This document shows positions 11,005 through 61,216 of a DNA stretch of 64,000 bases, one piece after another. The notes below the pieces were generated by a model. That model had not been told where the DNA came from. It made no database searches and worked only from the letters and a program-made list of their open reading frames with translations. Origin of the DNA: Holothuria scabra (Eukaryota > Echinodermata > Holothuroidea > Aspidochirotida > Holothuriidae). The position numbers and the translations under genes are program-made. The stretch is from assembly GCA_037179385.1 (NCBI GenBank), contig CM074195.1, positions 26,372,087 to 26,436,086 of the forward strand, given 5' to 3'. How positions within the stretch are numbered: position 1 is the stretch's first letter; every line of letters starts with the position of its first letter.

Positions 11005-12448
11005 AGTTGAGTAGAGTAAACTTTATTGAATCCAATCGGAAATTACATGTCTGCGATAAAAGGATTAAGAAGTCAAAAGAATGTACAAGAGCAATATAGG
11101 CAAAAACATAAAAAAGCATAAGAAGTAACAAAAAGAGCGGAACATTAAGTTAAAAAGTACAAAACAGTTAAAGAAAAGAAAGTAAAAGATGAAAAGGACC
11201 CTAAAAGTGAAAAACAAATTATAGACGTAGAAGACATCAAAAGGTGAATGAATAAAGGAGTCAAAAAAACAAACAGCACCATCTAAAAACTATCTATTAA
11301 AGTTCTTATTGTGAATAGCAATGGCAGCACCTATGAATGAGGATTGGCAACAATTAGTATTCAACTTTTTAATGACCTTAGTCTACCACTGCGATGGATT
11401 ATATGACTGCTTAGTTAAAGATACAGAGGATGGGAGGAGTCATACCGTAGCGATTGTAGTTTTACACCAGCATGTTTCATGTACTAGTAGACTGTATTAA
11501 CAGAAGGAAGATTCTTCCCTAGTATTCTACCCAGCTGTTTGATAATGTCATCTAGTACTTTTATATGGCTATTGTCAGTATTACCCCCTCAACATAAGAG
11601 ACAATAAGTCCATACGCTACATAAAATAGAATCGTAAAATGTGGCAAGAATATCTTGGTTAACCCTTTACCATTGTGCTCCAATCGGGGCATATTTGCGC
11701 ACCTCGGGAGTGGGCGGAAAAGTGGACGTAGCACGCCCCGCATCAGCTTTCGTAGGTTATTGACCCCGTGACCTTAAACTATTGTCCCTCTCGTTGTTGT
11801 GGTCGAATTTTCGGGTAGCTACTCGCAGTTTCGAGCTCCGCATGAAACAGTAAAGATGGGTGACAGCCGCGCTCTCCGTATGGGTCCAAAAGGACCCAAA
11901 CAACGGTAAAGGTTTAACACTAAAAGACTTAAGCTTACGTAAACAATATAATCTGGGTTTTAAACACTAATTCTCAACATACTGAACATACTCATGCCAT
12001 TTTAAATCATTGTCAAGAACAACTCTAAATACTTATACTCGGTAACCCATTCTTCGACACAATTTTTAATTAACACAGGTTCTGGTTTGACTTTGTTCTT
12101 GATTCTAAAATCAATAATCATCTCCTCTGTTTTCTTAACATTCAACTCTAGAAAATTCTCTGTACAGTAAAGCACAAAATTACTAATCTGATTAAGGTAA
12201 ATACTATGGTTGTCATTTGAAATAAGGCCAATAAAGGCAGTGTCGTCAGCAAATTAATAAGGGGGCAGTTGACATTGGTAGAGCAAATATCAGAAGTATA
12301 TACAGTAAAAAGGAAAGGGGCTAAAACCATACCCTGAGGAACACCGGTGTTAGGAATAACAGTATCAGAAATAACCTTGCTGCACAGGTTAGCATATTTT
12401 GACCTATTTGTGAGATAATTTAAAATCCATTTGACCAAGGAACAGCCA
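11005..12448 (-). mobile_element. LINE fragment with reverse transcriptase segment
   Basis: The minus strand from about 12447 encodes an RT finger/palm piece: VKWILNYLTNRS, then NTGVPQG, then FTVYTSDI. The catalytic FADD box is present just downstream (around 12240) but in another frame, because one base is missing between the PLI and FADD codons. The new frame then continues with NVKKTEEMIIDF- and YLGVVLDN-type motifs. The 5' part (endonuclease) is absent. The 3' region runs to about 11005 and is itself interrupted by a GC-richer TTAA element at 11659-11916. It is a dead copy. It lies inside the DR1-like tandem array. Confidence 0.8.
11659..11916. mobile_element. GC-richer TTAA-flanked MITE nested in a LINE
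   Basis: The left end TTAACCCTTTACCATTGT and the right end ACAACGGTAAAGGTTTAA form an 18-bp inverted pair with one mismatch besides a base change near the tip. TTAA is present on both sides. The interior is visibly richer in G+C and CpG than the surrounding LINE and ends in a small GGGTCCaaaaGGACCC hairpin. No protein is recognisable. Confidence 0.75.
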
Positions 12449-12993
12449 TGTTGTCACGTTGTGTCGTCAGAGTGTACTTTTCAAAAGGTCAAAGGTTGTT
12501 CAAGGAATCAAACACCCAAATCAAGCGGAAGCATCTACCTAGCTAAGAGTTGCATGAAGTTATCAATGTTGGCCACATTGTTCAAAGTTGTACATTGTGC
12601 AGATGCCAAATGACATTTGAAGTCACAAAGTGTCTGATGGTACATGCATAAGCTTTGATTTTCCATCAGGATTTGATTTTATATGATATTGCCATTAGAA
12701 TCATTTGTTGATGGGTCTGACAAAATGGGCTATGAGTAGCACTTCATACTTGTCAGCAAAATTACTTTTACCAAAACATGGAAGGAAAATTTGTCTCAAG
12801 CTGGGTAATTTTAATTTGCCCTTGCTGTAGCAATTAAAAATCCTGTTAAAGGTGTTACTTGGACTTTTCAGAGTTCATTGGTTCTGTTTCCTTAAAAATG
12901 TTATGCTACAAACGCTCAGGCCAGGGAAATCTGCATGCCAGGGAAATCTCTTGTCACTGAGCTTGGTGCTCTTGTTTAAGCTCCTACTTCTAT

Positions 12994-43776: not shown

Positions 43777-44639
43777 AATGCAGTTACTCTCGCGATGTCA
43801 ATTTCTGACTTTTCCGGCACTTTATTTCTATCTTCTTGTAGATGCTTTATGGTATCGAAATACGGTTTAGTGCAATTTGTAGGGATGGTACTTCTCTTTC
43901 GTGTTTTTAAGTTTTGGTGGAAATATGACTTTCGTGAGAGTGTAAAATTGGGGGTTTTTTCATGTAAAATTTGGAAACGTGTTCTATTTTTAGTAACAAT
44001 CTTGCGGAAAAACCAGGTCCGTATGTACTCTGGGGAAAAGGTTGTTTTTTAATTTAACACAGCGCCATCATTTTTTTTTTTAATTCATTACAGATTGGTG
44101 TTTAGTGCATTTTGAGTATTTACATGAGGATTTCTTTGTAGGGATTTATTCTTTTCAAGTAGCATGGTCCGGGTTGCGGTGAAGTAAAAAGTTTGATGGT
44201 TTAGAGGAGTTTTGTTCACTGTTTTTGTGACTTTAAAGGCCTGTGTGAATTTCTCACACTAACGACAATATTCACAAAGTAAGTTTCTGTTGGAGGGAAA
44301 CATTGTTATTGGTAGGTAAATATTATTTGTATGAGTTGGCAAGTATGGGGGTGAATTTCAAGATAAAAGTTATGAAGTGGAGAAAAATGACGATATCAGA
44401 GTTGGGAACAAACCAAAAAAAGTTCTAGTGAATGTGAAAAAAGTCAGAGGTGTGATAATGGGGAAAGTAGGGAACATGACGGTCGTGAGGTATTATTTAC
44501 ACGTTCGAAAGACCTACATGTACATTTTATTTTTCTCGTTCTTGATAGCTGTTGGAGAGAAAAAATGTTTAGGAAGCTTGTGTTGATAGATTCAAACATG
44601 GTTTTGTGAAAACTCTGGGGTTTGAATTGCCGTCTATTG

Positions 44640-45830
44640 AAGTAGGAAAATGTGTTTCAGTTGAGAGTAGGCCGATTCGTGTGAGAAAAGTACGTGGGGA
44701 GGGTAATTGTTTTTCGGTGTTTGGCATTACTGGTTACAGGGGTAGAAGATAATCATTTTTATTTAAGACAAGTCATTGTAAGTTCATTGTGTAGTTAATC
44801 GGGAAAAACGTGCCATTTATTTAGTCAATACAGGTGGAGTACATTATGACCTAGTGTTGGAAATAGAAGATAATGAGTCTGTACATGAGAGCAGCGTTAT
44901 AGAGAATTGGTTGAAGAGGGGTTGTGTTAATGAACATAGTGAAGAATTTTTCGGTGTTAAATGTAACATATTGAAAAGCGGAGACATTTTATTTGAAGAG
45001 GAGCGTAATCAAATGTCAATGCAAAGTTATGTGAAGAGAGCAGATGTTTGTTTAAATGAGGGGAGTAATCATATATTAGTGAAAGGGTCTATGGGAGTGA
45101 CTGAAGATAGGTATAAATGTTGGGAAAATAAAGGTTTTGTGATAAAACGTAGTGTGGGTATTGCAAGTGATAGTACTGAAATGATGCTTAGAGAACAAAT
45201 ACGTAAGCGTCAATTTAGAAAAGAAAAGGAGAGTCCAATTAGAGAATTGCAAAATCGCTTTTGGAATAAAATTATGGTGGGCGGGGCCTACATATGTTTG
45301 CTTTTATTGTGAGCAGTTATGGTATAAAGAATGTGCACTGTGGGTGAATTTAGTTAGATTTAGTGGCGATACTAATATTTGTAAGCAGGAAGAAGGTATA
45401 GATAAAGGATGGGTCTGTAAAACCTGTTTAAAATATATAAAAGAACGAAGAGTTCCGTTATTAAGTCGGGATAATAATATGAAAATGTATGAGATACCAG
45501 AAGAATTGAAATTACATCGTCTTGAAGAAAGGTTGACGCTTTTGCGAACATCTTTCATGCAGTTGCGTGATCTTCCTCGAGGAGGGTAATTTAGTATTAA
45601 GGGAAATGTTAATGTCCCGTCTGATGTGGTGGCAACAATTAAAACTTTACCTATAAGACTTGAAGAGAGCCAAGTAATTCCTGTCAAATTTAAGAGGAAA
45701 TTAAGTTATAAACGGCTGTTTTTCTGAAAATGTTAGGCCTAGAAGTGTTGTTCTTGCTGCTCGCTGGCTGATAGAAAATGAAGATATCAAGATACACAAC
45801 AATGACTTAGGAAAGGAAGACACGTTTTGA
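44640..45830 (+). pseudogene. Helitron-type protein remnant: OTU protease, zinc ribbon, DUF6570-like
   Basis: Three parts are readable. (1) VRKVRGEGNCFSVF, an OTU cysteine-protease motif with its Cys codon at 44708-44710; then, after stops and frame changes, TGGVHYDLVLEIED with the matching His codon at 44842-44844. (2) An open frame to 45312 (basic, Glu/Lys-rich linker), ending at a shift near 45280, after which YVCFYCEQLW and WVCKTCLKYI give a CxxC...CxxC pattern. (3) EIPEELKLHRLEERL, FMQLRDLPRGG, one in-frame stop (45587-45589) where Gln is expected, FSIKGNVNVPSDV, IPVKFKRKLSYK, then a frameshift and VVLAARWLIEN, matching the DUF6570-like region upstream of Rep in Helitrons. The Rep and helicase domains are absent. 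It is a dead copy. Confidence 0.75.
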
Positions 45831-46827
45831 AAAGGATGAACAACTTCTGGTAAGTGGGTCTGCTGACCCTCTTTACTAACGCCACCATTACTTGCCTACA
45901 CGATGTTGAGTTTGCGCTTAGAGGGCCTGTATAATAGAGTAGTCAGGTTCCTGTTTTTGACTCATTCAAAATGCCGTTTTGCATCATGAAGGATATATTG
46001 CAAAAAATGCCTGAAATACCTTCAATTTTCTTTGAATGATTACTTCAACTACTTTCCTACCACATAGATTTAACAAATTGAACACATCTTTTCACTAACA
46101 TGGTCCAATCTCCCTCCTCCTCCCCCCCCAAAAAAAAGTTTTTCTAGGGTATTAAATTCAGTAGGGTAACCTCCTTCGGCGGGATTCCCCTTGAATTGGT
46201 GGTGTGCTACCTTTTGTCTGCACTGCAAAGTCATACATATCACTCATCCGTGTCCGTGAAAAACCATGGGGGTCGTCCCATGGTTGCATTGACAGAAGAA
46301 CTATATTCAAAAAAGGTCACAGCAGGGGGCTGCCTTTAGTAGCAGCTCCCTGGTATTAGTCCCGTTCATATACGTCACTAGTATCCCTTCCCCAATTATT
46401 TCTAAGTTCAGCATTTAATCAAACTTGAACGATATTGTCTTACACCAATCAGAGTGTCGAACCATCCAGTAATCAATCATAAAGATACATTGCATCATTT
46501 TTAGGTCCTATAATGAAACGTGAATACCAAAATGTCGATGTTTATAATTTATAGCTATTAGCTGCGATTCGTCTGTCATCACATTATTAACCAGAAACGT
46601 TTCTTATTACATTCTATAGCAAGGACTTTTTGTCGCTTCTTTGACGATGTCTTTACTACGGAAGAAAATATTGTCATTGTAGTAAGTTTATGTATGGCCA
46701 TGACTCGCAATTGATAAAACAATTACCTAATGAAAGCAATAAGTAAGACAGTTCTATGAATACGAATAAACTGGCGAGTAAAAGATTCCGTAGAAGACGA
46801 ATTTCATCATTCCAACAACCCGTCTGC

Positions 46828-54666: not shown

Positions 54667-56441
54667 GTTATTGTTAATAGTTTTAGGTTGGTTATATATT
54701 TTAAGGACATACCACCTGGAATGGCTTAAATAAATTGTCAGGTATATCAAAAGGTAAAGTAATTCCATTATTCTGTTCAAGTTTAAATTTTGGTTTCAAA
54801 TGTTGGGGTCCTTTCCTCAAGTCATCTTTTATGAATGGGGGCAGTGGTGGATCTACTGTATGGTTGCAAGGGGTAATTGCCTCTCCTGACTGACCAAACT
54901 TGCCTGCTGGCCCCCTTTTTCAGTTTCTATTATTCTGCTGATAATGCCCCATGGCAGGCCATGCTCACCCCCCTCTGACCGAAATCCTGGCCCTGACCAA
55001 TTAAAACATTTAACTCTGCCAGTAGGGGGGACTGTTATGGGCATATTCTACACCTCCCAATCACAGGGGATGTATTATGGTTAGGGTTAGGTATTGTGGG
55101 TTCAATAGTTTAGGGTTAACCTGTAATCCTGAACTCCAAGCCCCATGAAGGTTAGTGTTAACATTGTGCAGCAAAGTCAAACTCAAATTGTCCAAGGTGA
55201 ACATGGTAGCATGGATACTTTTTATCTCTTCTTTAACCTCAGTTGAAAATCCAGGATGGATATTGGAAACCCAGCCTGGTTTTGGCTGACATCTTGCAAT
55301 GAAATGTATAAAACATCAAGATGTCTTGAAATTTTGTGTGGGTCTGTATATACTAACTCTATATATATACAACATTTTAGATACATGCATGATTCTCATT
55401 TTTTATGAATGGATAGCTTTTCTTATGAGGTTAAAGTGAAACAACATTATCTTGCATACTGTGGTCAGTAAAAGTTCTCCCTTAAAACATTTATCCTACA
55501 GTAAAAGCATCAAGCTTCTATATTCAAAGAAAAACACATGTCTAACACAGCTTCCAGATGATAAAGTTTCAATGTGGGGCTAACAAGTTGAGGTAGCCCT
55601 ATCGTTATACAGATACTTAATTGCCTTGAGATATAATTGCTCAAGGCCATATATCTGTATGATTATTCTGGGTGTGAGCTTGGGAATTGTGCAACATAAA
55701 GCACAAGATATCATTATCCAAGCTGTTATTTAGCCCCAATCAAAAGGCAGTCATCAGTTTAATTTAAAGACAGCTAGAGTCTACTGGATGGTCCCGGGAT
55801 TCTGTGTTCTCAAGGTTCGATGTTCCTCGTTTTGGAATATATCAATGATTTGACGATGATTACAAGGCCCTTTATTCCTGGGATTGGATGTCCCCAGAAG
55901 TGCGGATGTTCCCAAGATTTGGGAATAGGGAACCTTGGGAACAGCAAACCTTGCGAACAATGACATAGTCCCTTTATAGACAAATCCAAGCAGCCCTTGT
56001 GTTTAGTGACTGTAGGCAGCTATTAGTGGGGTACATCAGCCTTAAATGGTTTCATTTATTGTCTACGTGAAATTCAAAACCATTGGAGAGTATGTTGCTA
56101 TCAGATTTCTTACCCATGGTTAATGAACTTAAACGGCTCCAAACATGTACTTTAAATGTTTAATACTTAACTAAAAACCCATTTTTGTCAGGGAGTGAGG
56201 TTGTATATTAATCATTCTATTACCTTAGTCCAGTGGCAAAGTGGCAGACTTAGGGCACACCTGTGTTGTACCTGTGCACAGTGGCCCTGTGTGTGTATGA
56301 AATGCTAATTTCCAGGTGGGGCAATGTTCCCCATGCATTGCATTGTTCCATGATGATGAAATCACTGAGCCCCCAAGCATAAATTGGTAGCACCAATCAG
56401 TTACCACCTATGATTTTTAACAGAACCCAAAAGTGGTTCCC
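54667..56441. other. No gene recognised
   Basis: The minus-strand frames at 54853-55044 and 55781-55966 have no recognisable domains. A cluster of 'gttccc(a/g)ag' and 'ggaacc' words lies at 55787-55965. Nothing else is interpretable. Confidence 0.5.
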
Positions 56442-56499
56442 TAATGTACGGAAGCGTAGAAGGGCCACTCAAAAGAAAAAAGAACTGCCTCGGCAAAGT

Positions 56500-57003
56500 G
56501 ACAATTTTCTTAATATTGACATTTTGACGGCTTAATGGACTCCTTAAAAAGGCAAAATTCGGAAAATTGTCATATTGACAAGATAAAACATCTCGTCAAA
56601 ATGGCAAAATTCGGAAAATTTATATTTTGCCACCCAAACAACATCTCGTCAAAATGACAAAGTTCACCAAATTTTCATTTTGCCGAGTAAGAACATGTTG
56701 TCAAAATGGCGAAATTCCGAAATTGTCCTTTTGCCGAAATAGAAAATCTCGTCAGAACGGCAAAATTCAGAAAACTGTCATTTTGCCGAGTCACAACATA
56801 TTGTCAAAATGGCAAAATTCCGAAAATTGTCATTTTGCCGAGTTACTACATCTAGTCAACATGGCAAAATTTGGAATTTTGTCAATTTACCGAGTTAGAA
56901 AATCTCGTCGAAATGGCAAAATTCGGAAAATATGACATTTTGCCCAGAAAATACATCTAGTCAAAACGGCAAAATTTGGAAGATTGCCATTTCGCCTAGT
57001 TAG
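56500..57003 (+). repeat. Left-arm array of ~52-bp units
   Basis: A unit like 'gtcaaaatggcaaaattcgg' + 'aaaattgtcattttgccgag' + 'ttagaacatctc' repeats. Unit starts (GTCaaaa) fall at 56596, 56648, 56700, 56751, 56803, 56855, 56907 and 56960. The period of 51-53 is not a multiple of three, so the open frame across it is incidental. Confidence 0.9.
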
Positions 57004-57280
57004 AACCTTCAGCGCTCAATTGTATGGAAACGTTAAGGTGCCCTCAAATTACGAACTTAGTCATCGCGTTATCTTAACATTTTGCAACAAAATAATGAAA
57101 TGAGTCTTATTATCTTAACATTTTGCATATAAATGATAAAGTGCAAACGTACAATATTTCAACAGTTCAACATTTTTGCACTGAATTACTCACATATTTC
57201 AAGTAATAAATTTAGCATATTGTCAATTGGCAGAAAAATGACGAATTACTTAATCTTTTTTTAATTCCTATTTCCACATT

Positions 57281-57860
57281 TTAAAGGCATATTCTGGAGA
57301 CAAAATTCGTTAAATTCAAAATAAGGAGAAAATTTTACTCTTTCAGAAGGTAAAAATGGCATCTCCATAGCTTATACCGTTTGGAAGATACAAATTTTCT
57401 AAAGTATTGCCAATTTTTCTTGGGATTTGATGTATCATGGGAAACCTGTGATGTCATCGTGGCACATTAATTTTACATTGCATTCAATTTATTTATAATT
57501 ATGGTGCCGCTGCAGGCAGTATTAAGCAATATTGTTCGTTGTACTCTTTGTATGGTGAAGGGTAATGCTAGATCTACAGGAAAAGATATTCAAATATTCC
57601 AACAGTATCAAATTTCAAGAACTAACAGGATGTTCAATTATAAAGAAAAACAAAAGGAATTTGAAGCAATGTGCCCACATTACATAACTTCTTGTGGCTT
57701 TGTTGAAAAGCAGAGGTTTTTCAGCAAAAATAACCAATCTTTAAAGTGAGATATCTTGAGTTAGGGAAATAGTATCATGGTAGGGTTCGAGGGCATGGTG
57801 TGGAATATTTTTGTTTTCCTAACAAAACAGAGGAAAAAATCCACAAGAGAATGCCTTTAA
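57281..57860. mobile_element. TTAA-flanked MITE nested in the foldback element (family D)
   Basis: TTAAAGGCATATTCTGGAG (57281) and 'ccacaagAGAATGCCTTTAA' (ending 57860) are imperfect inverted ends with TTAA at both tips. It lies in the foldback centre. An 82-codon frame inside (57501-57749) has no family match. Confidence 0.7.
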
Positions 57861-58454
57861 AGGGGTAGAATAAAGCGTGCCGTCATTAAAACTAATACAC
57901 ATGTTTTCATAACGAAACATTTCTGTGTATCTGTTTGGGGCAATCTGAACTCTTAAGGCAGGAAGCGGGGATAAAACTTTCAGACTTCAGAGAGCCCCTG
58001 AAATTCGAATTTGGGGTGGGGGCAATCTCTTTCTTTCATTTTACTGTCTGAACAATTTTACCTTTTACTTTTTCCAGGGGCACTTTGCCCCTTCCCCTCT
58101 TGCTATGCTTCTAGTGTGATATGTGTACAAGGTGTAGCAACATATAAGACCCTACAGTTAAATCACTTCCTTTCTATTCACTGCTACGTTCTCAAAAGGA
58201 CCCATTTAATAGCTTTTTTTTCGTTGTTATTGGGACGTTAATATCAGCAAAGTCTAAACGCCCTTAAAAATGGACATAACAGCTAAGTTTGTCATAATTT
58301 CTACCTGAATGCTATACAAGTCCGGGCTTTGTTTAAGACAAAAGCAACAACTGGGATTTAATTACCCTTATAGAAGCAGGGTATCTGAACCAGTGTTTAA
58401 GTCGAGACCAGCATATCCAAGACCGAGCCCAAAACGTGTCGAGACCGAGACCAG

Positions 58455-58561
58455 GGGGCCGTTCCACAAGAGTTACGCACAATCTTAAGTTTGATTCACC
58501 ATACTTAACCCATCAGTAAATCATACTTAAGATCGTGCGTAACTCTTTGTGGAACGGGCCC
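58455..58561. mobile_element. 107-bp foldback MITE nested in the foldback element
   Basis: 'ggggccgttccacaagagttacgcacaatcttaagt' pairs with 'acttaagatcgtgcgtaactctttgtggaacgggccc' around a ~33-base loop. It splits a run of 'gagaccgagacc' repeats (58393-58454 and 58572-58615). Confidence 0.85.
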
Positions 58562-59034
58562 TGGGCAGCCTGAATTCGAGACCGACAAAGTCCAAGACCG
58601 AGACCGAGACCGAATGTACATATTGCATTGAAAAATGAACTGTCCAAAATTTTGAATACTTTTTAGCATAATTTTATTGCCTAATGATTCCACGGTTTAC
58701 ATATTTCTTCTTCTTGTTAAAGCGCCTTCACTCATGATTGTACTATAAACTCACCAAATTGGGGAAAGAACATAACTATGATACAAAAAATTGGTATGCA
58801 TGAGTCATTCATTATTTTTCTGCAAAACAGGGAAAAGGTAACATTCGTTGAATGCGTAATTCATCAATTTTCTGTGAAATTTTGAATCGTTGATATATTG
58901 TAAGTTTGCATTTCATCATTTTCTGCAAAATGCTAGGAAAATAAGTAAACACTTCATTATTTTGTGACTAAGTTCTTAACTTGATGGCACCTTAATGCTT
59001 CCATAGAATTTCGCCGTTTAAACATGATGATGTA

Positions 59035-59590
59035 ATTCGGCAAGGTGGCAATTTTCTGAATTTTGCCATTTTGACGAAAAGTTCTTACCCGGCAAAGTGA
59101 CATTTCCCTGAATATTGCCGTTTTGACGAGATGATCTAACTAGGCAAGATGACAATTTTTCGATTTTTGCCATTTTGACGAGAAGTTGTAATTCGCTAAT
59201 ATGATATTTTTCTGAATTTTACGATTTTGACGAATGTTTAAACTCGTTAAAATGTCATTTTTCTGAATTTTGCCATTTTGACGAGATGTTCAAACTCGCC
59301 AAAAGGACATTCCTCTTAATTTTGGCGTTTAGACGAGATGATCTATTTCGGCAAAATGACAATTTCCCTGAATTTTGCTATTTTGACGAGATGTTGTAAC
59401 TCAACGAGATGACAACTTTCTGAATGTTGTCATTTTGTAGAGATTTTTAAGTCGGCAAAATGACAACTTTCGGAATTTTAACGTTTTGAAAAGTTGATCA
59501 AAACGCCAAATTACGGATTTTTGTCATTTTGAAGACATAATTTTAGTCCTCAAAATGTCAATTTTACGAAAATTGTCACTTTGCCGAGAC
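59035..59590 (-). repeat. Right-arm array of ~52-bp units (inverted)
   Basis: 'ttgccattttgacgagatgt' + 'tctaactcggcaaaatgaca' + 'attttctgaatt' repeats about ten times, the reverse complement of the left-arm unit. TTTTGACGA-type cores fall at roughly 59070, 59121, 59173, 59227, 59276, 59330, 59382 and further on. Confidence 0.9.
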
Positions 59591-59982
59591 AGTTCTTTTT
59601 TCTTTTGAGTGGCCCTTCTAAGCTTCCGTACTAATGGGCTGGCATGGTGAAGAGTGATGGAAACCATCATTTCAACTTTTTTTGTTATTATGATACATCC
59701 AGGTAAAAATCCAGGGAGGCTCACAAAGACATTTTTAAACATGTACTAAATTAAAAGGAGGTGTTTGAGGTTGAGTGGTAAAGTTTACTACTTTTCAAAT
59801 ACTTCAGGAAGTCATGTTGGGGTGCATCTCATATGTACATCATTAAAATTGAAGTTTTTACTCTAAAGGAATTCATTTTATTTTTCATGTTTAAGTCCCC
59901 CTTGAATTAGTTTTTTGGCTACCATGGTCCCTTATGTTCAGAATCTTCATGTACATTATTAGCTGACTCTGATTAGTTTTCA

Positions 59983-60232
59983 ACCACGTGTTTGGTGTAA
60001 CGGTAGAGCATCCGCCTCTCACGCAGAAGGCCCAGGTTCGCTTCCCAGGTCGAGTCATACCAAAGACTTTAAAAAAGGAACCTACTGCCGTTGTGCGTGA
60101 TGCTCCGCATAAGCAATGGAGTAGAGAAAACAAGCCAGTGAGTCACAACTGGATAAAAGCTGTGGCCGGCTCAACTTGAACCAATAGGTTGGAAACTGGC
60201 CCGTAAAACTCCATCTAACTACTAACTAACTT
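59983..60232 (+). mobile_element. Full-length tRNA-Glu-like SINE
   Basis: The head has an A-box-like 'tggtgtaacggtagagc' and an anticodon-arm-like TCCGC-CTCTCAC-GCAGA (anticodon position CTC, as in tRNA-Glu). The B box is GGTTCGCTTCC. It is followed by 'gtcataccaaagactttaaaaaaggaacctactgcc', the common body and an 'actaact' tail. This is the best reference copy for the SINE family in this window. Confidence 0.85.
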
Positions 60233-61216
60233 ACTGATTAGTTTGCACCATTTTGGGAAAGAGACTGTCAATCACTCCTTCTCAAGTATTAATTTCTTCA
60301 GACCGGTAATAAATTATAGCATCATTATTTTACTCTTATGAAGTATCAACTGACTTGCTTTCAGATGTCTGAATACTTGGTGTTTAACTCTCTGGGTGAG
60401 AGAAGGGGTCAATGCACTTCACCCTTTTCAGCTTTTGGTACAGTATCTACTGGTGTAGGCTGATGATTAATATATTTGCAAACAGAACAGGAAGTAGCGA
60501 TAAAATTTATACCTGTACACCCAGCAAGGTTCAAATCACCAGATACGATAGACAAATTCATCCACATTTTGAAAGAAGACCAAAAATCTAAGAACTTATT
60601 TGACTGCCCCAAATAATCTTTCCTTCTGGGGCTTAGCCTAAAGTATCAGAACTCTTTTGAGCATGAAATCACAAAATTAGTGGAAAACATTTCAAAGTTA
60701 TTTCCAAGCTAAAAGGGAAAATGGCGTCACCTAAAATTGAACTAGTATTCCCTTTTATCCTTCTTCACGAATGGCTTTGCATTGATAATATGACAATACT
60801 TTTGTTAGTTTATTGTTAAAATTCGTGAGAACTAACTGCCATGGATCCAATTCCTTTACATTTTCTTTGTAATCATTACTTTTCGGCAAAACAGTCCCAG
60901 GGACACTTGTAAGGCAAAATGCGAAGAACAAGGTCATTGTTTAACCATTAGAAAGACAAATCGCATGGCTTCGGGCTATGCAATTGAGTCATTAAAATGT
61001 ATTTTTATTTATTAATTATTGATTAATTTATTTTTAAAATATTAATGACATAAAATCAATAGATGCAGCAGTTCTAAAAATAAACTCCCAAAATTTGAAA
61101 ATGTGAAATCAGAGTGCAGTGAGGAAAATCAAACCAGCCCAAGACCTCATTGAAAAATTTCATGCCATTTCTCTCAAAGTTAACAATGTGCCTAATTAGG
61201 GCTGGCTTAGGCTTAT
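60233..61216. other. No firm gene; possible LINE endonuclease scrap at 60409-60612 (-)
   Basis: The minus-strand frame 60612-60409 contains LSIVSGDLNLAG, reminiscent of the (V/I)xGDFNLPG motif of LINE APE endonucleases. There is no further support around it. The rest is AT-rich. Confidence 0.25.

Follow-up and report, generated by a model that had tools for sequence, protein, structure and literature searches.

The window analysed here, a stretch of 64,000 nucleotides from the sea cucumber Holothuria scabra, contains two long inverted arms built of tandem repeats. These raise the question of whether they delimit a mobile element and, if so, which enzyme moves it. An earlier note, made from the letters alone, had proposed a complete foldback transposon and had suggested seeking its partner among P, hAT or MULE transposases. 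We followed up the proposal in the 1.19-Gb assembly of 31 contigs, where the window lies on contig C17.

A non-coding foldback element

The window holds a complete, non-coding foldback transposon of 3184 bp, as the earlier note had claimed, with bounds now corrected to 56447-59630 (Table 1). Its termini read TACGGAAGCG...CGCTTCCGTA. The matching tips were borne out: the outer 86 bp of the two arms are 93% identical without gaps in the window copy, forming inverted repeats >30 bp, and a 42-bp tip pattern occurs only at the two ends of the element (with 0 and 1 mismatch), and never in 100 shuffles. The proposed TAAT duplication exists, but it has 6 bp, CTAATG, of which TAAT is the middle.

The arms, of ~0.8 kb each (56447-57250 versus 58803-59630), are 80.7% identical across 752 aligned bp and enclose a core of ~1.55 kb. 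The opposed arrays of ~52-bp repeats also held up, with ten units on the left and eleven on the right, whose majority sequences, each read inward from its own tip, are equal at 50 of 52 positions. The left majority unit is a quasi-palindrome, matching its own reverse complement at 36 of 52 positions in the best rotation (mean 24.7 and maximum 32 in 500 shuffles). The element thus has the structural traits of foldbacks: long inverted repeats with variable tandem repeats, and no recognised coding sequence. That no transposase is visible agrees with the scan of 10 of the 22 listed frames (at least 50 aa), none of which matched Pfam above the curated cut-off (best E 0.004). We rejected the reading of the element as coding on these ten frames and on a comparison of one frame with PDB sequences, in which the E values were only 0.44 and 0.89.

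Table 1. Parts of the foldback element and its target duplication (window positions)
Feature	Position	Strand	Basis
Foldback element, complete, 3184 bp	56447..59630	+	Co-terminal with 18 further intact copies
Target duplication CTAATG, left copy, 6 bp	56441..56446	.	Outer flanks compared
Target duplication CTAATG, right copy, 6 bp	59631..59636	.	Outer flanks compared
Left outer tip TACGGAAGCG..., most conserved part of the arm	56447..56532	+	93% ungapped against right tip
Right outer tip, family form ...CGCTTCCGTA, window form AGCTTCCGTA	59545..59630	-	Match to left tip
Left minisatellite, ten 52-bp units	56489..57008	+	Repeat-unit analysis
Right minisatellite, eleven 52-bp units	59027..59588	-	Repeat-unit analysis
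Left inner tip TATGGAAACGTTAAGGTGCC, opening the inner domain	57023..57049	+	Tip scan
Inner domain, left arm	57023..57250	+	Inverted match to right arm
Inner domain, right arm, ending in inner tip CCATA (tip 58979-59005)	58803..59005	-	Inverted match and tip scan
Core between arms, without recognised coding sequence	57251..58802	.	Arm alignment and frame scan
Nested palindromic insert, borders approximate	58457..58563	.	Missing from 7 of 19 copies

Other features of the window lie outside the element. GC skew is strong (0.38) at positions 44001-46000, where several frames overlap on the two strands; two of these frames were scanned and gave one weak PF14471 match, below cut-off. A reverse transcriptase-like fragment at 12148-12453 (minus strand) matches PF00078 at E 0.0008, also below cut-off. 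At ~59985-60235, visual inspection picked out a tRNA-like stretch with a short tail behind it, resembling a SINE; ARAGORN and Rfam at its gathering threshold flagged nothing there.

A young and dispersed family

A genome search with positions 56442-56600, in which 40 of 868 candidates were scored, gave at least 40 matches, window included, that are 96-100% identical over ~154-160 bp; four weaker matches adjoin one of these. The exact 20-mer of the tip occurs 280 times (142 and 138 by strand), and its reversed control not once. We examined 20 of the other 39 matches, chosen among those ranking highest in similarity. An intact pair of tips spaced ~2.95-3.19 kb was present at 18 of these loci; of the other two, L022 carries two tips that point the same way, and in L028 an insertion splits the foldback copy. 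With the window, this makes an intact set of 19 copies of 2950-3189 bp, all of which co-terminate. The termini are TACGG..CCGTA in 18 of the 19, L017 having TGCGG at one end.

The duplication recurs as well, and neither of the two refuting outcomes named in the earlier note was observed. The six bases outside the tips agree at 6/6 in 16 of the 19 copies, at 5/6 in L017 and L027 and at 4/6 in L011, whereas none of the 342 mismatched left-right pairings reach 6/6 (mean 1.9 of 6). Compared with the window copy, the other 18 show 95.9-99.4% identity. All 19 cluster in groups of 12 and 7; the distance to the majority of the own group is 0.13-0.66% in 13 copies and 1.9-2.5% in the other six. Within a copy, the arms agree at 94-97% in the outer 86 bp and at 79-83% over their whole length. 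The interior is common to the 19 copies except for some deletions, missing array units and a palindromic insert of ~105 bp that is lacking in seven. Of the nested insertions announced for the window element, this insert is the one that was found. Units are missing from the arrays of, for example, L009, L014 and L015, and the number of tandem repeats is therefore variable. Next to the copies in L016 and L020 lie relatives at ~82-83%. The family thus consists of many young, dispersed copies and has spread recently.

Tips also occur at other spacings. Among the tip places from C1 to part of C6 we compiled 15 further pairs, 3 to 43 kb apart and including L029 and L031; six further single stretches, which are not opposite-facing pairs, were left out of this count. 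Nine of the 15 pairs have a 6/6 duplication and represent eight distinct insertions, two of the nine sharing flanks and duplication. These two, C3:53871704-53896528 and C3:54131443-54135095, have the same duplication CCTTTG and 24.8 versus 3.65 kb between tips, and are a duplicated locus with ~21 kb extra in one copy. Reading of the outer flanks showed no direct 6-bp duplication in the remaining six pairs. Three of these (L046/47, L048/49 and L060/61, the last being L031) each lie directly against another tip and are possibly mispaired; a fourth is L040/41. In the last two, L029 and a 27-kb pair, each outer flank is an inverted copy of the opposite one. The foldback tip pairs at L029 (C2:3565955-3575921; arms of 851 bp, 99.5% alike) and C2:59579467-59606711 carry inverted duplications, which may reflect rearrangement or an assembly error. 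L029 (9.9 kb) was considered as an autonomous form of the family and rejected: an inverted duplication reaching into the flank forms its ends, and 10 of its 15 frames were compared with Pfam without a match at E 0.1. Pieces of L030, which represents a 3.64-kb class, match the window at 82-87%, and GGAAGG flanks this copy on either side (by eye); six of its frames gave nothing above cut-off in Pfam.

These data bear on the reading in which the structure is a duplicated inverted repeat and not a mobile element. Inverted or direct duplications that take in flank do occur, at L029, at the 27-kb pair and at C2:54675839/54681797. Yet such a reading is contradicted by the dispersal of the copies among differing flanks, by their fixed ends and 6-bp duplications, and by copies that lie within the tip of another copy. 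When we joined the flanks of 25 insertions to reconstruct their empty sites, two were tip-like (28/28 in L020 and 22/28 in L036/L037), the other 23 scoring 11-16; the copies in L020 and L036/L037 sit inside another copy's tip, with 6/6 duplications. A non-mobile origin is almost certainly wrong.

Inner tips and nested elements

The earlier note had described a unique inner domain in the arms. Such a domain is present in each, but it opens with a second tip, TATGGAAACG, whose pair in the window lies at 57023-57049 and 58979-59005: TATGGAAACGTTAAGGTGCC starts at 57023 and its mirror ends at 59005. The same inner tip was found at all six loci scanned (L016, L020, L022, L029, L030 and L031). Two observations argue against a simple history. 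In the window the flanks of the inner tips, CAATTG and GAATTT, do not form a direct repeat, and those in L030 mirror each other, the pattern that later conversion of one arm by the other would leave.

One locus of 43 kb (C1:35939418-35982680; stretches L068, L070, L071, L072 and L069) carries an L030-type foldback with the duplication GTCTGG and two nested insertions. The first has 13.8 kb and TTAA at its borders. The second, of 25.8 kb, starts with TATGGAAACGTTTAGGTGCCGTC and has a mirror end, that is TATGG..CCATA, with GAATTT on both sides. Because this insertion carries the inner tip together with a 6-bp duplication, the inner tip serves, or once served, as an independent terminus. Frames of this insertion include one that is zinc-finger-like and one with a SAM domain. 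The 43-kb pair had been a candidate for a giant autonomous element, which we rejected upon recognising in it an L030-type copy that holds two large nested insertions.

A third family, of ~1.8 kb, lies inside the foldback copy of L028 (L028:6068-7866). Its ends are IS3EU-like (TATGGGCGGCC..GGCCGCCCATA), its arms of ~600 bp are 94% alike and its borders, CGAATG and CTAATG, agree at 5 of 6 positions. The corresponding site is uninterrupted in the window element.

Probable assignment to the IS3EU superfamily

The literature describes IS3EU/GingerRoot elements as having TA..TA termini, 6-bp target duplications and inverted repeats >30 bp (PMC10045372, PMC12730594), with fungal members ending in TAYGG..CCRTA (PMC12730594). 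New insertions of Styx, a fungal relative, are likewise reported with 6-bp duplications, and one of them derived from a copy whose integrase frame is non-functional, which resembles movement in trans (PMC10853768). The sea cucumber family shares with IS3EU/GingerRoot and Styx, as these are described, the TAYGG..CCRTA tips, the 6-bp duplication and the long inverted repeats (PMC10045372, PMC12730594, PMC10853768), and it differs from IS3EU/GingerRoot by the lack of coding sequence, the long two-storey arms and the 52-bp minisatellite. Judged on sequence, tips and duplication length together favour IS3EU. We consider it very probable that the element is a non-autonomous foldback of this superfamily, whose transposases are of the integrase-type DDE class, and that it is mobilised in trans.

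The partners suggested earlier, P, hAT or MULE, would imply that the foldback derives from one of these groups and is moved by its transposase. Precedent exists, since Mutator is the group to which the majority of described foldbacks have been assigned, and Galileo is placed in P (PMC4079207). Duplication length alone would not exclude a MULE, because MuDR/IS256 elements are reported to make duplications of 4-10 bp, with which 6 bp is compatible (PMC10045372). But TAYGG..CCRTA tips with a constant 6 bp are the pattern of IS3EU, which they fit better, and the 8-10 bp duplications of Tetris-type MULE foldbacks contrast with the 6 bp found here. The duplications of hAT elements have 8 bp and those of the P superfamily 7-8 bp, and these lengths exclude both. 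Altogether this derivation appears improbable.

The ends might also come from other integrase-type groups, Polinton/Maverick-like or Ginger elements, and integrase-type genes are present in this genome. We find this quite improbable. Polinton tips are unlike TAYGG..CCRTA. Polintons are reported to share the 6-bp duplication, but Ginger1 has 4 bp and Ginger2 4 or 5 (PMC10045372), and TAYGG..CCRTA tips are specific to IS3EU as described (PMC12730594).

Under the IS3EU assignment, a transposase of this type, made elsewhere, would bind the outer tips, and perhaps also the repeated quasi-palindromic 52-bp units, and would attach the ends to target DNA cut with a stagger of 6 bp, moving the element in trans. 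Repeats in arrays have been proposed as extra transposase sites for Galileo (PMC4079207). An element with TATGG..CCATA ends would have lodged inside the outer one, which would explain the two-storey arms, composed of an outer tip, a minisatellite, and then a second IS3EU-type tip with inner repeats. The nested stack would now move as one unit by its outer ends.

A candidate partner

PF24764 (rva_4, integrase core) was chosen as a putative IS3EU enzyme. A profile search, in which 150 of 329 candidates were scored, gave at least 91 matches in the genome and none in 14 control genomes. We read four loci with a frame of 430 aa (L073, L074, L077 and L078). The two that were scanned match PF24764 at E ~1.6e-35, with PF00665 below cut-off. 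All four copies have D172, D231 and E272, with 40 residues between the last two (DD40E), and they are pairwise equal at 414-419 of 430 residues. The frame is intact and its first methionine is at position 117, so that translation probably starts in another exon.

Flanks of L073 and L074 are unlike, and the two loci become alike from TAYGGAAGCGTATAAGTGCCAC. Their left tips, TATGGAAGCGTATAAGTGCCAC in L073 and TACGGAAGCGTATAAGTGCCAC in L074, closely resemble that of the foldback: L074 is equal at 20 of 22 letters (2 differ) and L073 differs at 3. Over 20 letters, the outer tip shares 14 with the inner tip and 18 with the tip of the 430-aa element, and the latter two share 15. Inside its left tip the 430-aa element also has a subterminal minisatellite, with ~5-9 copies of a 94-bp unit; this array is unrelated to that of the foldback, and the element differs further by its DD40E frame and by an inverted arm not being seen in the stretches read. 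Those of L077 and L078 begin within the element, and neither a right end nor a duplication was found in the stretches read of the four loci. We thus propose the 430-aa PF24764 element as a candidate partner, the likeness of ends covering the left tip only.

Equating PF24764 with the IS3EU enzyme draws on two observations only, this left tip and PF13276, presumably the helix-turn-helix of bacterial IS3 transposases, which occurs in 6 of 120 homologues of the 430-aa protein among the matches listed. The named sources among these matches include sea cucumbers, sea urchins, a sea star, Ptychodera, Lingula, a scallop and corals. A second PF24764 family, with a 311-aa frame (E 1.9e-63 in L075), is represented by two copies, L075 and L076 (C8:394600-400600 and C9:34849300-34855300), which are 99.7% alike over 5975 bp.

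Another partner can be imagined in the 25.8-kb TATGG insertion, whose sole long frame (at least 150 aa) encodes 730 aa (L072:458-2647, minus strand) and could be a CMC-type transposase: PF02992 occurs in 5 of 120 homologues of this protein among the matches listed. The protein itself has no Pfam match, the insertion holds other nested material, and CMC-type elements make duplications of 2-4 bp, not 6, all of which renders this partner very unlikely. For the 430-aa and the 730-aa proteins alike, the best-scoring named homologues come from sea cucumbers, followed by sea urchins or a coral.

Relation to known foldbacks and implications

The likeness to TU and Galileo suggested by the earlier note is structural. 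Sea urchin TU elements share the two-domain foldback arms, but have 8-bp duplications, against 6 bp here, and other repeat units. Tetris and Galileo of Drosophila share long inverted repeats with internal tandem repeats, and some Tetris copies are also described as lacking coding sequence, but Tetris has 8-10 bp duplications and its authors assign it to Mutator (PMC4079207). The literature searched, outside of which lie Repbase, Dfam and most subscription papers, contained no description of an IS3EU foldback. Within that literature, the earlier suggestion of an undescribed family is likely right, and the family itself is real and multi-copy.

Foldbacks have mostly been credited to Mutator or P transposases. 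Here, a large young family is tied to IS3EU by its ends, by its target scar and by a transposon whose left tip is nearly identical. This names a concrete candidate for the partner protein and raises the question of whether the minisatellites of the arms are repeated transposase sites. Dispersed and highly similar hairpin elements also favour rearrangement, and inverted duplications are visible around two of the tip pairs.

The IS3EU foldback architecture may have arisen more than once in this genome, a proposition for and against which we see the chances as even. It would then comprise the TACGGAAGCG family with its 52-bp arrays, the TATGGAAACG family nested in it, whose 52-bp repeats are different, and the 1.8-kb TATGGGCGGCC family with ~600-bp arms. 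The first of these would travel as the outermost part of a nested stack and could insert into its own tips. If this is true, subterminal minisatellites would be a recurrent working part of the IS3EU superfamily, perhaps as repeated sites for the transposase.
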